Below are positions 10,248 through 35,106 of a stretch of DNA of 64,000 bases, in pieces (position 1 is the stretch's first letter; every line of letters begins with the position of its first letter). The notes under the pieces are model-generated. The model was not told the origin of the DNA. It made no database searches and was given only the letters and a program-made list of their open reading frames with translations. The translations under genes and the position numbers were made by a program. The DNA is from Paludisphaera borealis (GTDB lineage Bacteria; Planctomycetota; Planctomycetia; Isosphaerales; Isosphaeraceae), in the NCBI RefSeq assembly GCF_001956985.1, contig NZ_CP019082.1:372001-436000 (forward strand), in the 5' to 3' direction.

Positions 10248-11345
10248 TCAATTGCCGCCGCGCCTCGGCTCGGGGCTCGCGATCGCCGGCTTCTTCCACC
10301 AACTCACCAGGCAACCCGGCAAGGCGTCGCGGAGCGTCTGGGCCTGCTCTGGCGTGACGTCGCCGCCGCCGATGAAGAGCTGTTTCAGGCCCTTTTTCGC
10401 GGAGAGCTGCGTCAGCCCTTTCGCGGTGACGCTCGTCTCCGGCAGTTCGAGGACCTCCAAGGATTCCATCTTCAGGAAGACGGGAACCGCCGCGTCGTCG
10501 ATGCCTTTGGCTTTCCAGAGCTTCAGCCGCCGCAGCCTGGGCAAGCCGCTGAGAGCCGATATTCCCTTACTGGTCACCCGGGTCGCCCGGAGGTCCAGCG
10601 TCCGCAGGTTCTTCAAGCGAGCCAGCTCCGCGACGCCTCGATCCGACACATTGGTCTCGCCCAGATCGAGAACTTTCAACTGAGCAAGTTGCGCGATCTG
10701 GCCGATGTTGAAGTCCGTCACGGCGACGCTCCAGAGGCCCGAGTCGGTCCGCTGCTGGCCGGAGACGCTCAGTTCCTTGAGCGCGGGGAGCGACTTCAGA
10801 GTCGACAGCGCGGCCCCGCTCATCTTGTTTCCGCCGAACGCGAGATGTTCGAGGTGATCGAGGCTCTCCAGCAGCTCGAAGGAGTCGTCATTGACCCGGC
10901 TGTGGCCGACGTCGAGGAATCGGAGATTTGTCATCTGCGCGATGTGCTCGAACAGCGTGCTGGTCACCTTCGTGCCGCGCAGGTTCAGGTGTTCGAGGTT
11001 TTTCCAGTGCTTCAGGTGGGCGATCCCCTCGTCGGTGACGAACTCCGCATAGTACAGGTCGAGCGTTTTCACGTTCGTCAGCGGGGCCAGGTGCTCCAGG
11101 CCCTGGTCGGTGATCTTCGTATAAGCCAGGTTGACGCTCTCCAGTCGCGGCAGCCGCGCCAGCTTCGCCAGGTCGGCGTCCGTCACCCAGGAGTCGCTCA
11201 GATCGACGCCGATCGTTTCTCCGGCGGCGTTGCGGACGCAACGCGCGCCGAGCGCGGCGTCGGGACCGTCGTCGGCCGAGGCGGACGGCGACGCCAAGGC
11301 CACGCCAAGCCCCGCAAGCCACCAACACATCGCGCTGCGAACCAT
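10248..11345 (-). CDS. Secreted leucine-rich-repeat protein
   Basis: A 365-residue protein with a signal peptide (CWWLAGLGVALASPSASA) followed by about twelve bacterial LRRs of 23-25 residues, of the form L..L..L.LR.T.VTD.G. The ATG at 11345 is taken over upstream in-frame starts because AGGAG lies 6 nt before it and the hydrophobic signal follows directly. It sits 28 nt after the related 682-residue LRR gene and is probably the last gene of a minus-strand unit that begins with an esterase. LRRs of this class bind protein ligands; the partner is unknown. A short Pro/Arg-rich tail follows the last repeat. Confidence 0.88.
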   Translation of the reverse strand: MVRSAMCWWLAGLGVALASPSASADDGPDAALGARCVRNAAGETIGVDLSDSWVTDADLAKLARLPRLESVNLAYTKITDQGLEHLAPLTNVKTLDLYYAEFVTDEGIAHLKHWKNLEHLNLRGTKVTSTLFEHIAQMTNLRFLDVGHSRVNDDSFELLESLDHLEHLAFGGNKMSGAALSTLKSLPALKELSVSGQQRTDSGLWSVAVTDFNIGQIAQLAQLKVLDLGETNVSDRGVAELARLKNLRTLDLRATRVTSKGISALSGLPRLRRLKLWKAKGIDDAAVPVFLKMESLEVLELPETSVTAKGLTQLSAKKGLKQLFIGGGDVTPEQAQTLRDALPGCLVSWWKKPAIASPEPRRGGN

Positions 11346-32494: not shown

Positions 32495-32655
32495 CCGGAC
32501 CTCGCGAAAGTGATGACGCCGAAACTCCTCGGCGCTTTCGAGGCGCGTGGGCGAATCTTCGATACAGACGGGCCGCAACCCTCATTCAAGTTCGACGTCG
32601 GCCGCCGTGAACTTGAACGATTCGGTCGGTCGTGACGCGGGCCGCTGGTGGGAGT

Positions 32656-33066
32656 TCAGATCGTCCAGTCCGGCGTCTTGCTCTGCTCGGCGAGCTGAGC
32701 GATCGAGGTGTGATTGAGAATATGAACCTGGGACGCCTGGATCTGCTCCCAGAGCTGGGAGAGGACCACGGCCGAGGCCCGACGCGGCGCCCGAGCCGAG
32801 TGGTCGCCGCCGTCGATCACGCGGAGCACGTCCCCCAACGAGATCTCCCCCGGGTCGCGAGCCAGCCGGTAGCCGCCGGACGAACCCCGGGTGCTGGTCA
32901 CCAGCCCCGCCCCCTTGAGCCGGATCAAGATCTGGGTCAAAAAGGTCTCGGGTATTCCGTGCGACTCGGCGATTTCACGGATCGGCACCGGCTTGTCGAG
33001 AAGATATCGGCTCGCCAGGGCGATCACTGCCAAGCATGCGTATTCCGCCTTCGCCGAAACCTTCAC
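32656..33066 (-). CDS. Rrf2-family transcriptional regulator without the cluster cysteines
   Basis: A 136-residue Rrf2 protein: KVSAKAEYACLAVIALA (helix 1), IREIAESHGIPETFLTQILI (winged-helix recognition region), then TSTRGSSGGYRLARDP and the wing. The dimerisation helix region carries no cysteine: the three residues that usually bind Fe-S are missing, leaving only one Cys at about residue 12. The start is probably the GTG at 33066, because AGGAGG lies 6 nt before it; the ATG two codons upstream touches the ribosome site. It is paralogous to the regulator at 34.5 kb; both end in DWTI. It may control the Met/Cys-rich gene between them. Confidence 0.9.
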   Translation of the reverse strand: MKVSAKAEYACLAVIALASRYLLDKPVPIREIAESHGIPETFLTQILIRLKGAGLVTSTRGSSGGYRLARDPGEISLGDVLRVIDGGDHSARAPRRASAVVLSQLWEQIQASQVHILNHTSIAQLAEQSKTPDWTI

Positions 33067-33093
33067 GGCCATCCTCCTGGACTCGTCGGGTCG

Positions 33094-33366
33094 TCAATTC
33101 CAGCAAGGCGCGTGAGCCTTCTGAAACCGCGAGGGCTCCAGGGCCGCCTGAGCCTGCTGGTAAGCAAGCCGATAGATCTGCGTCCAGGCGTCGCCCGCCG
33201 TGAATCCCCCGCGCACGGCGTGAACGAAGGCCCGAAGGCGACCGCCGCTCGCGGAAACGCCATCACCGCAAAACCCGACGGCGCGACCGCCGGAAGAATC
33301 GCCGTCGAGATCGAAGCATTCGAAGGGGCCGGGAAGGAGATCCGTGACATCGCGGCAAGACCTCAA
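33094..33366 (-). CDS. Small uncharacterised protein upstream of Rrf2 gene
   Basis: The C-terminal 40 codons read as a real protein (GDAWTQIYRLAYQQAQAALE, ending PCWN), with coding-like third positions. The N-terminal part is less convincing and the frame starts with TTG without a ribosome site. It ends 27 nt before the regulator's start, so the two are probably co-transcribed. Short planctomycete proteins ending in this Trp-Asn style occur, but I cannot name a family. Confidence 0.4.
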   Translation of the reverse strand: MRSCRDVTDLLPGPFECFDLDGDSSGGRAVGFCGDGVSASGGRLRAFVHAVRGGFTAGDAWTQIYRLAYQQAQAALEPSRFQKAHAPCWN

Positions 33367-33685
33367 GTTCGGTGGGTGATTCGTAAGCTCAAGGTAATGA
33401 TTACCATTCCTATCGCCTCAGTCAAGTTTGTCTTCGGTAACCTGATCGGTTTTCTTGAGATTGGTCGCCGGGGGTGTTGAGTAATCGCCTCGGAACTCCT
33501 GGGCGGACGCCGTTTTGGGCGATGTAAATACCAAAGGCGAAAGGATTTGTGGTTTGGGTTCGGCTTTGAGTCGGAAGCGCGCCGAGCGGAGGCGATTGGC
33601 GACTGGCGTGATAGGGATAAGGGCCCCGGACGCCGACGGAGAGGTCGGATAGCTTACCTTCCAGCTTACCATGGACGAATCTTGG

Positions 33686-33710
33686 CTATCCGATCAAATT
33701 GATCTGATAG
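33686..33710. promoter_or_regulatory. 25-bp near-perfect dyad, candidate regulator operator
   Basis: CTATCCGATCAA and TTGATCTGATAG flank a single central A. The 12-nt arms match at 11 positions. Rrf2 regulators bind AT-rich dyads of about this size, and two Rrf2 genes are adjacent, so this is a good operator candidate. It ends 139 nt before the ATG of the Met/Cys-rich gene. Confidence 0.55.
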
Positions 33711-33719
33711 GTCATGATC

Positions 33720-33737
33720 CATCAAAGTTTTTTGATG
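33720..33737. promoter_or_regulatory. Second small dyad
   Basis: CATCAAA and TTTGATG, 7-bp arms around GTTT, ten bases after the 25-bp dyad. It shares the ATCAA half-site word with it. It could be a second operator or a hairpin in the 5' leader. Confidence 0.4.
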
Positions 33738-33849
33738 AATCTGCTTGAAATGAGTTTGTCGATTCGTTATTAGTGAGTGGAGTGGGGGCCGAAAAAGGCT
33801 GGGCTCCGAATCGACGAGGCCGAGTTACACACGAACGGGAGTTACCACG

Positions 33850-34323
33850 ATGACCAGCGCGATGATGATGGAACGGGCCGGCATGGGCATGACGGGCATG
33901 GGCATGGGGATGGGCGCGACGGGGATGCCGACGGGCGCCTCGATGCCGACCGGCCAGCAGTGGATGATGGTCCCTCGCTGCACGATCACCATGGAGAAGT
34001 GCCCCGGCGGCATGAAGATGGTCTGCAAGAGCGAAGACAAGATGAGCGCCACGATGATGCAGAACCTCTGCAACATGATGGCCGGCGGCATGTGCAGCTG
34101 TTGCATGATGATGAACGGCATGATGATGTGCTGCTGCAACATGGCCATGGGCATGTGCAAGTGCGAGATGACCGAAGACGGCGTCTGCATCACCTGCACC
34201 AGCGGCGACGCCGAATGCTGCAAGATGATCCAGGCCTGCTGCGACTGCATGATGGCCATGAGCAAGGCCGGCTGCGTCTGCTGCGTTTGCATGAACAACA
34301 TGCCGGTCTGCTGCAGCTGCTGA
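33850..34323 (+). CDS. Met/Cys-rich putative soft-metal-binding protein
   Basis: A 157-residue protein with 38 Met and 26 Cys, about 41% sulfur amino acids. Residues 1-35 are a Met/Gly region (MGMTGMGMGMGATGM). From about 43 a cysteine-rich body follows, with CTITMEKCPGG, CSCC, MMMCCCN, CKCEMTEDGVC, ECCKMIQACCDC, CVCCVC and a final VCCSC. No signal peptide or membrane helix is seen, so it is probably cytoplasmic. GGGAG lies 8 nt before the ATG. Third codon positions are almost all G or C in this frame, which supports it over the His-rich frame on the same strand and a minus-strand frame. The thiol/thioether content suggests binding of Cu(I) or other soft metals, like a metallothionein; that is inference. 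Confidence 0.85.
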   Translation: MTSAMMMERAGMGMTGMGMGMGATGMPTGASMPTGQQWMMVPRCTITMEKCPGGMKMVCKSEDKMSATMMQNLCNMMAGGMCSCCMMMNGMMMCCCNMAMGMCKCEMTEDGVCITCTSGDAECCKMIQACCDCMMAMSKAGCVCCVCMNNMPVCCSC

Positions 34324-34362
34324 TCGCCGCTCGACGCGATTCGTCTCGTCGACCGTAACGAA

Positions 34363-34413
34363 ACCGACGCCGTCGCCCCGCTCGCGCGATTCGAGGGGGG
34401 CGACGGCGTCGGT
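34363..34413. terminator. Strong 17-bp hairpin between convergent genes
   Basis: ACCGACGCCGTCGCCCC (34363-34379) pairs perfectly with 34397-34413 around a 17-nt loop. It lies 39 nt after the Met/Cys-rich gene and before the converging Rrf2 gene's stop. The plus side is followed by CGATTTG and the minus side by TTCGTTA, so U-tracts are weak but present on both sides. A two-way terminator is likely. Confidence 0.65.
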
Positions 34414-34456
34414 CGATTTGGGAACGATCGAGTTTGCGGGCCGGTCGAAGTCCGGG

Positions 34457-34906
34457 CTAGATGGTCCAATCGGCGACGTAGAGATATCCGAGAGCGTGGT
34501 TTTCCTTCACGAGGTCGGCGAACGTGGTCTGGTCGACGACGTCGGCGATGGCCTGGCGGACTCGCCCCCAGAAGCCGAAGAACGGGCAGTTGCCCGGATA
34601 CTCGCACTGCTTCGGTCGCGACTGGCTGACGCAGTCGACGGGCGCGACGGGGCCGTCGATGAACCGGATGACCATCCCGATCGTGATGGTCTCGGGCGCG
34701 CGGGCGAGCAAATAGCCCCCTTCGGCGCCCCGGCGGCTGTTGACGAAGCCGCCCCCCTTCAACTGGCTGAGGATGGCTTCCAAAAACTTGATGGGGATGT
34801 GCTGCTGCTCGGCGATCTCGTTGGCCTTCAGCGGCGTGGTGGTCTTGTGTTCGGAGAGCGCGTAGATCGCTCTCAAGGCGTAGTAGCATTTGGCCGAGAC
34901 GGTCAT
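34457..34906 (-). CDS. Rrf2-family transcriptional regulator with three conserved cysteines
   Basis: A 149-residue Rrf2 protein: MTVSAKCYYALRAIYALSEH, ANEIAEQQHIPIKFLEAILS as the recognition part, and NSRRGAEGGYLLARAPE as the wing. The segment VDCVSQSRPKQCEYPGNC has spacing C-x8-C-x5-C, suited to bind an [Fe-S] cluster as in IscR, NsrR and RsrR; an extra Cys lies at residue 7. A longer open frame extends to 35257, but ATG 34906 gives the family's normal N-terminus. It is convergent with the Met/Cys-rich gene, and is probably a redox, NO or metal sensor for the locus. Confidence 0.92.
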   Translation of the reverse strand: MTVSAKCYYALRAIYALSEHKTTTPLKANEIAEQQHIPIKFLEAILSQLKGGGFVNSRRGAEGGYLLARAPETITIGMVIRFIDGPVAPVDCVSQSRPKQCEYPGNCPFFGFWGRVRQAIADVVDQTTFADLVKENHALGYLYVADWTI

Positions 34907-35106
34907 TCCAAGGCTCTTTGACTTTGAGTTGGGTCGAGCCGGCCACGCACGACGATGATCGGAAGAAGCGCCTGCGACGACGTTCTCGAGCTTCGACCTG
35001 GCCCGCAAGATGATTCGATCGGAATCCTCGACATTCCATCTTACTCGGGTGGAGCGGCCGTCAAAACCCCTTTCCGACGCATCGGGACCGACGCGGGGCG
35101 TTCCCC

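Follow-up and report, generated by a model that had tools for sequence, protein, structure and literature searches.

Why would a bacterium make a protein with sulfur in about 40% of its residues, and what cellular business would such a protein serve? The question is raised by a gene at 33850-34323 on the forward strand of the window, the whole 64,000-nucleotide stretch of Paludisphaera borealis DNA analysed here. Its product (157 aa, 16.66 kDa, defined by ORF translation and homologues) contains 38 Met and 26 Cys, or 40.8% on recount, in agreement with the 41% given in a first-pass annotation of this DNA, together with a single Trp and no His, Tyr or Phe. Met and Cys contribute sulfur amounting to about 12.3% of its mass, placing its sulfur residues far above those of normal proteins, as would be expected of a sulfur amino acid store. 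We know of no described bacterial protein with so large a share of sulfur-carrying residues.

A Met/Cys-rich gene and its family

The gene is real, far beyond what chance would produce, because all five of the other genus members searched carry a homologue at 78-83% identity and dN/dS across the core lies between 0.11 and 0.68 (Nei-Gojobori, 15 pairs from six genus members). The core is therefore under purifying selection. The first-pass annotation had argued for a real gene from codon third positions that are rich in G/C in this frame only, and had named a homologue search, an alignment of Cys and Met and a dN/dS estimate as checks; all of these bear it out, and GC3 is 0.95 in the gene frame, while the two alternative frames have 0.36 and 0.53. 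A chance ORF or an antisense shadow is ruled out by the homologues in 64/397 genomes of the class, the dN/dS and the frame-specific GC3, and a 404-aa antisense ORF at 33825-35039 on the reverse strand is taken to be the shadow. By eye, a GGGAG ribosome-binding-like site stands 8 bases ahead of the ATG, and the protein bears no signal peptide or other export signal. A search for known RNAs and riboswitches across 32600-35100 returned just four weak matches to microRNA models (E 0.35-0.76, far below cut-offs), all at 34363-34413, 3′ of the gene.

The protein is a member of an undescribed and scattered family. In line with the first-pass annotation, which saw no fit to metallothionein or Csp patterns, it matches no family in the collections searched: Pfam and NCBIfam at E up to 1 returned no family, metallothioneins included, and a profile run to E 10 against the sequences in PDB returned a single match, to an antigen receptor (E 0.85), and no Csp chain. 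A tblastn search of a plasmid collection up to E 0.01 was without match, and we found no paper on the family in the open-licence literature. Counting the source genome itself, homologues are present in 18/59 relatives and in 16/45 genomes of the taxonomic family. The 64 genomes of the class, identified by profile search, belong to 39/185 genera and fall to 62 without two weak matches, and just 5/392 genomes sampled across the phylum carry the gene. The two weak matches lie in longer frames (G518 C3:67339-67620, 312 aa, E 8.6e-5; G720 C259:745-1032, 527 aa, E 3.6e-4), are absent from the tblastn results and were excluded from the locus counts; they are possibly distant relatives of one repeat.

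The N-terminal tail (residues 1-41, 33850-33972, forward strand) is rich in Met and Gly, holds no Cys and is predicted to be disordered over residues 1-35; a tail with Met and without Cys is found in 29 of 33 members. Residues 42-157 form the core, which consists of an internally duplicated unit, as the profiles of its two halves match each other with a probability of 96.4 (E 1.2e-9, score 46.2), compared with a best score of 18.1 among 100 column-shuffled profiles. AlphaFold2, run on 29 rows, predicts 8 strands and 2 helices arranged as two beta-hairpin/helix/beta-hairpin units in tandem, with a block pLDDT of 81-92 over residues 41-157 (core about 90), a pTM of 0.65 and a disordered tail. 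In the first repeat (33982-34140, forward strand) the predicted strands span residues 45-51, 54-60, 82-88 and 91-97 around a helix at 64-76; in the second (34153-34314, forward strand) they span 102-108, 111-117, 143-148 and 151-155 around a helix at 121-139. When the predicted model was compared with solved folds, Foldseek gave nothing at E 0.001 or better and the VIA Z was low; such a weak or missing structural match is not to be read as evidence of a new fold.

In an alignment of 29 rows, from which the partial rows L018, L019, L021 and L022 were excluded, Cys is invariant in 5 columns and at least 90% conserved in a further 11. The cores of 33 members (L018 and L019 omitted) contain 3-37 Met and 17-34 Cys, together 27-47% of residues, and those of 46 further members (one of the 47 later members could not be cut to its core) contain 1-29 Met and 21-37 Cys. 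The Cys frame is thus the constant trait of the family and Met-richness depends on lineage, because core Cys stays high (17-37 across all members) while Met ranges from 1 to 37, some members having 1-5 Met alongside 25-37 Cys. Of the combined Met and Cys richness that had first drawn attention to the gene, then, the Cys part holds throughout the family and the Met part does not define it. Across the 33 cores, without correction for kinship, Met correlates negatively with Cys (r -0.82) and with Leu/Ile/Val/Phe (r -0.90). Cys and Met also interchange, being paired at mismatched sites 1.64 times as often as expected (1184 against 724), with Met the commonest substitute for Cys (36%); in BLOSUM62 the Cys-Met pair scores -1.

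Gene neighbourhoods, Rrf2 regulators and a small partner ORF

Neighbourhoods were compared across 79 loci in two sets. Set 1 comprises 32 loci (4.5-18 kb, mean 14.1 kb) from which the profile models were built, and set 2 comprises 47 later loci outside model building (4.2-16.5 kb, mean 13.5 kb), left from 52 fetched after removal of 3 duplicates of set-1 contigs and the 2 weak matches. For comparison, 40 control regions were taken at round-number coordinates from 11 set-1 genomes; at 16-18 kb they exceed the loci in mean length. Loci within the sets are not independent, with 6/32 from one genus and two or three from some genomes, and the distance between a linked gene and the family gene reaches 5-6 kb in some cases.

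In relatives the gene is recurrently linked to genes for Rrf2 proteins, for PALP enzymes of the cysteine synthase/cystathionine beta-synthase type and for OscA-like DUF2292 proteins. Rrf2 is found near 17/32 set-1 and 10/47 set-2 loci (27/79; controls 0/40), PALP near 7/32 and 11/47 (18/79; controls 1/40) and DUF2292 near 7/32 and 6/47 (13/79; controls 0/40), with set-2 Fisher p values, uncorrected for kinship, of 0.0013, 0.0042 and 0.021. When Pfam was run on 100 neighbour proteins from 24 loci, picked as near genes out of 183 listed, Rrf2 came first (11) and PALP second (6). At individual loci NCBIfam cut-offs are exceeded by a cystathionine beta-synthase (TIGR01137) and PRK07811 in L053 and by CysK in L066. 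The DUF2292 neighbours match PF10055 and fall below cut-off for the NCBIfam sulfur-starvation protein OscA, which is linked to the sulfur starvation response of Pseudomonas (Viti 2009, cited in PMC3596284).

Other sulfur genes occur at fewer loci. Cystathionine gamma-synthase/lyase is found at 3/32 and 4/47 (7/79; controls 1/40), a linkage that is not significant alone (Fisher p 0.23 in set 2 and 0.18 in both sets, uncorrected for kinship). A CysW-like permease, generically an ABC permease by Pfam, is near 0/32 and 5/47 loci (controls 1/40), and is read as a sulfate importer because in L196 it adjoins CysA, recognised by the CysA C-terminal domain. Cysteine dioxygenase, found twice among the 100 neighbour proteins and confirmed for each individually, is near 2 of the 24 set-1 loci scanned for it, and a model made from this pair picked up none in set 2 (0/47); both cases come from multi-copy genomes of one Isosphaeraceae genus. 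One of these, Aquisphaera insulae, has one family copy beside a small ORF, Rrf2, CBS and CGL genes and another beside the dioxygenase; the genomes carrying more than one copy include G437 (L025 and L030), G011 and G648.

Two gene orders recur, each spanning more than one taxonomic family. In the first, the gene, Rrf2 and a PALP of cysteine-synthase size follow one another in one direction (L066, L028, L199, L185, L186, L188, L192), and in the second, PALP and gamma-synthase/lyase lie upstream on the opposite strand (L053, L030, L064, L197, L198, L203, L205). Synteny alone is an unlikely source of the cysteine and sulfur theme, because such neighbours appear in several taxonomic families and in both orders. 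Taken across the 79 loci, the neighbours indicate cysteine and sulfur metabolism more than metal handling. No consistent pattern emerged from the composition and locus tables by which the Met/Cys ratio would follow the type of neighbouring enzyme, and this idea was set aside.

At the window locus the Rrf2 pair is the sole representative of these linked genes, and this locus is among the 48/79 that have no PALP, gamma-synthase/lyase, DUF2292, dioxygenase or CysW nearby (the dioxygenase having been scanned at 24/32 set-1 loci). The genome's cystathionine beta-synthase and cysteine-synthase-like gene are sited elsewhere. Both flanking regulators reported in the first-pass annotation are confirmed over the PF02082 cut-off, Rrf2 A at 32656-33072 (reverse strand, E 3.6e-30), which lacks cluster Cys, and Rrf2 B at 34457-34906 (reverse strand, convergent with the gene, E 2.6e-35), which carries a CX8CX5C motif resembling that of Fe-S Rrf2 proteins and also kept, among the set-1 regulators inspected, by those of L066, L028, L026 and L064. 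The 7.65 Mb genome has five Rrf2 matches over cut-off, and two of them flank this gene.

Upstream, the dyad CATCAAA-GTTT-TTTGATG (33720-33737), likewise noted earlier, lies 114-131 bases ahead of the gene, within a conserved block, and is a candidate operator. Of the six genus members, four (the window's included) share it unchanged, a fifth has an altered yet symmetrical version and the last one that is not fully symmetrical; the 7.65 Mb genome contains no other exact copy. Controlled expression, as first suggested, is plausible. An operator shared with the promoters of the genome's own CBS and cysteine-synthase-like genes was considered and rejected, there being no copy upstream of either by eye. 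On the side of the small ORF, a perfect palindrome, GGTAATGATTACC, at 33393-33405 is possibly a second operator; ATTACCATTCC, which adjoins it, is largely conserved in relatives by eye.

This small ORF (33094-33366, reverse strand, at most 90 aa with an uncertain start, ending in YRLAYQQAQAALEPSRFQKAHAPCWN) is a conserved and usually divergent partner of the family gene, about 70-90 aa in length. Rrf2 A follows it after 21 bases on the same strand, and the two probably form one operon. Within the taxonomic family, homologues of the small ORF are found in 15/16 gene-bearing genomes and in 0/29 without the gene, and all 16 matches lie at most about 1.1 kb from the family gene; the exception, G015, has the gene and its upstream side with no small ORF detected, and counts as a plain miss. 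The ORF is present at 24/32 set-1 loci (E<0.2), and in set 2 it is near and on the opposite strand at 30/47 loci at E<1, 25 at E<0.2 and 23 at E<0.05, compared with 0 of 40 controls at E<0.2 and 1 at E<1. It ends in Asn in 30/30 set-2 copies against 5/269 other predicted ORFs, a count with some bias because the search model contains the Asn column, and in 21/24 aligned copies, the exceptions being two copies from Verrucomicrobiota and the one from Fibrobacteres. The residue modified in microcin C is a C-terminal Asn. The members tried against Pfam and NCBIfam gave no match, and the structure model is confident for the C-terminal helical part alone, the protein having a YRLAYEQA-type helix. We presume that the partner and the Met/Cys-rich protein serve one process.

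Proposed role and rival explanations

We propose, tentatively and with a probability of about 0.42, that the Met/Cys-rich protein is a cytosolic, regulated, sulfur-rich sink or reserve, part of a cysteine-homeostasis module controlled by a CymR-like Rrf2 protein. Computation establishes the gene, its family, the duplication, the predicted fold and the Cys/Met interchange, and likewise the recurrent linkage to Rrf2, cysteine synthase/cystathionine beta-synthase and OscA-like genes, whereas for gamma-synthase/lyase, the dioxygenase and sulfate import the linkage either falls short of significance or comes without a control. A role in sulfur housekeeping, rather than as a simple metal store, is possible because family genes often lie near genes that make cysteine or regulate sulfur. 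The folded protein, with two hairpin-helix-hairpin repeats full of Cys and Met and a Met-rich tail, would provide a regulated sink or reserve for thiol and thioether sulfur. An Rrf2 protein, perhaps together with a cysteine synthase in the manner of CymR with CysK, would sense cysteine status, and its reading of that status would set the amount of the protein. Synthesis would then absorb surplus Cys and Met, and breakdown would give both back. A more specific version, in which the repeat protein and its small Asn-ending partner form a dedicated two-gene reserve of reduced-sulfur amino acids, with a cysteine-synthase/Rrf2 pair gauging filling and emptying, is more doubtful.

Among the nearest known counterparts are the CymR/CysK and mccAB loci of Firmicutes. 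According to PMC2869319, B. subtilis and S. aureus both have CymR, an Rrf2 repressor that forms a complex with CysK and, in S. aureus, acts directly on mccAB; according to PMC2940859, MccA (beta-synthase) and MccB (gamma-lyase) of B. subtilis convert methionine to cysteine. As in those loci, the Rrf2 proteins of relatives lie near cysteine-synthase-type enzymes or near a beta-synthase with a gamma-synthase/lyase, and both Rrf2 proteins of the window are PF02082 proteins with CymR as their second-best NCBIfam match. The two differ from CymR in scoring 85.1 and 98.0 bits, far below the equivalog cut-off of 195, and the window locus differs from CymR-type loci in having no PALP, which is present in 18/79 family loci. 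By analogy, we infer that the Rrf2 proteins of the window and the family may act as CymR does. To our knowledge no Met/Cys-rich protein is associated with the CymR/CysK and mccAB loci.

Several observations weigh against a sulfur reserve. Under CymR an ample cysteine supply brings repression of the targets, and a store controlled in that way would be shut off at the wrong time. A pure store also needs no fixed Cys positions, yet 5 columns are invariant and 11 highly conserved. The Met+Cys content of the core is inconstant (27-47%), with Met swapped for Leu, Ile, Val or Phe in some lineages. Furthermore, the genome's own CBS and cysteine-synthase-like genes are located elsewhere and have no dyad upstream by eye, and the 48/79 loci, the window's among them, lack the sulfur genes sought. 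Among other reserves, sulfur-rich seed storage proteins likewise enrich Met and Cys on a conserved Cys frame, but they are plant-derived and have a lower share of sulfur residues. IssA is similarly a protein reserve involving sulfur, set apart by storing inorganic iron and sulfur as thioferrate.

The main rival, somewhat unlikely in our judgement, is a soft-metal buffer whose core Cys and Met would hold Cu(I), Zn, Cd or Ag in thiolate/thioether clusters while the linked cysteine genes feed a burst of synthesis; it ranks first among the rivals because coupling to cysteine genes would equally supply Cys for a metallothionein-like burst. Putative metal binding is chemically plausible, and the buffer is favoured by Cys conserved by position, Cys/Met interchange, an MxM-type tail and, by eye, no signal peptide. 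In S. aureus, exposure to diamide or peroxide switches on CymR targets, and copper-efflux genes are more strongly expressed when cymR is mutated (PMC2869319), so that thiol supply and metal stress are coupled elsewhere. CopA-like proteins (E. coli query) occur in 1/32 and 2/47 loci, that is 3/79 against 0/40 controls, each more than 5 kb from the gene. Against this buffer, CueR (E. coli query) is found in 0/79 loci and 0/40 controls, no copper or metal family is among the Pfam families seen at least twice in the 100 neighbour proteins, and no metallothionein family matches up to E 1. The store for Cu, Ag, Cd or Fe-S precursors that the first-pass annotation had put forward finds no support in that form, the neighbours pointing more to cysteine and sulfur.

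Like bacterial metallothioneins, the protein is small, Cys-rich, presumably cytosolic and poor in aromatics, but it is longer, Met-rich and without family match, its repeats are predicted to be folded without metal, and its linkage is to sulfur genes rather than metal sensors. Like the Csp copper-storage proteins it gathers many Cys in one small protein, but those are four-helix bundles with Cys inside and the present model is beta-rich. Membership of either class finds no support, as there is no family match, no Csp match in PDB and no four-helix bundle in the predicted fold.

We consider improbable a redox or reactive-sulfur sink, in which exposed Met and Cys would be sacrificed to oxidants or Cys would carry sulfane sulfur. 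It draws on the very high Met and Cys content, on Rrf2 proteins including redox and NO sensors, with Rrf2 B bearing CX8CX5C, and on analogy with a methionine-rich hypochlorite scavenger, reportedly periplasmic and working with Msr (Melnyk 2015, listed among the references of PMC9751292). Extreme Met content and a possible sacrificial store are common to both proteins; unlike that scavenger, the present family keeps Cys constant, several of its members are almost free of Met in the core, and by eye no export signal is seen. MsrA (E. coli query) is near just 1/32 set-1 and 0/47 set-2 loci, the window's not included, and 0/40 controls; the sole case in the 79 loci, which counts in favour of such a sink, is L061, where a homologue at 10687-11184 lies close to the gene and its Rrf2. 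Least probable is an iron-sulfur or iron-thiolate holding protein for Fe-S assembly under IscR/NsrR-like control, which the CX8CX5C of Rrf2 B and four relatives would suit but which is opposed by the absence of Isc or Suf families among the Pfam families seen at least twice in the 100 neighbour proteins and by the lack of cluster Cys in the Rrf2 of the small-ORF operon.

If the sulfur reserve is real, bacteria would have a protein store for reduced sulfur beside their stores of carbon, nitrogen and phosphorus; a metal buffer would be a new family in an unusual, sulfur-linked setting. On either reading, culturable Planctomycetota would allow a test of how cysteine level, Rrf2 sensing and thiol-rich proteins are connected.

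Descent and patchy distribution

A GTDB scan gave 13 loci, among them 3 in Verrucomicrobiota, 2 in Phycisphaerales and 1 in a Fibrobacteres MAG. In the tree, the Verrucomicrobiota and Fibrobacteres rows, four in all, form one clade (support 99/94) nested among Isosphaeraceae rows, and this placement suggests that the gene was transferred between phyla; the fork above the clade is weak (87/84) and is drawn open. Finally, a protein cluster represented by a DDE_5 transposase-like protein lies near the gene in 12/47 set-2 loci (L190 6286-7371 and 11 others), and this neighbour may bear on the patchy distribution of the family.
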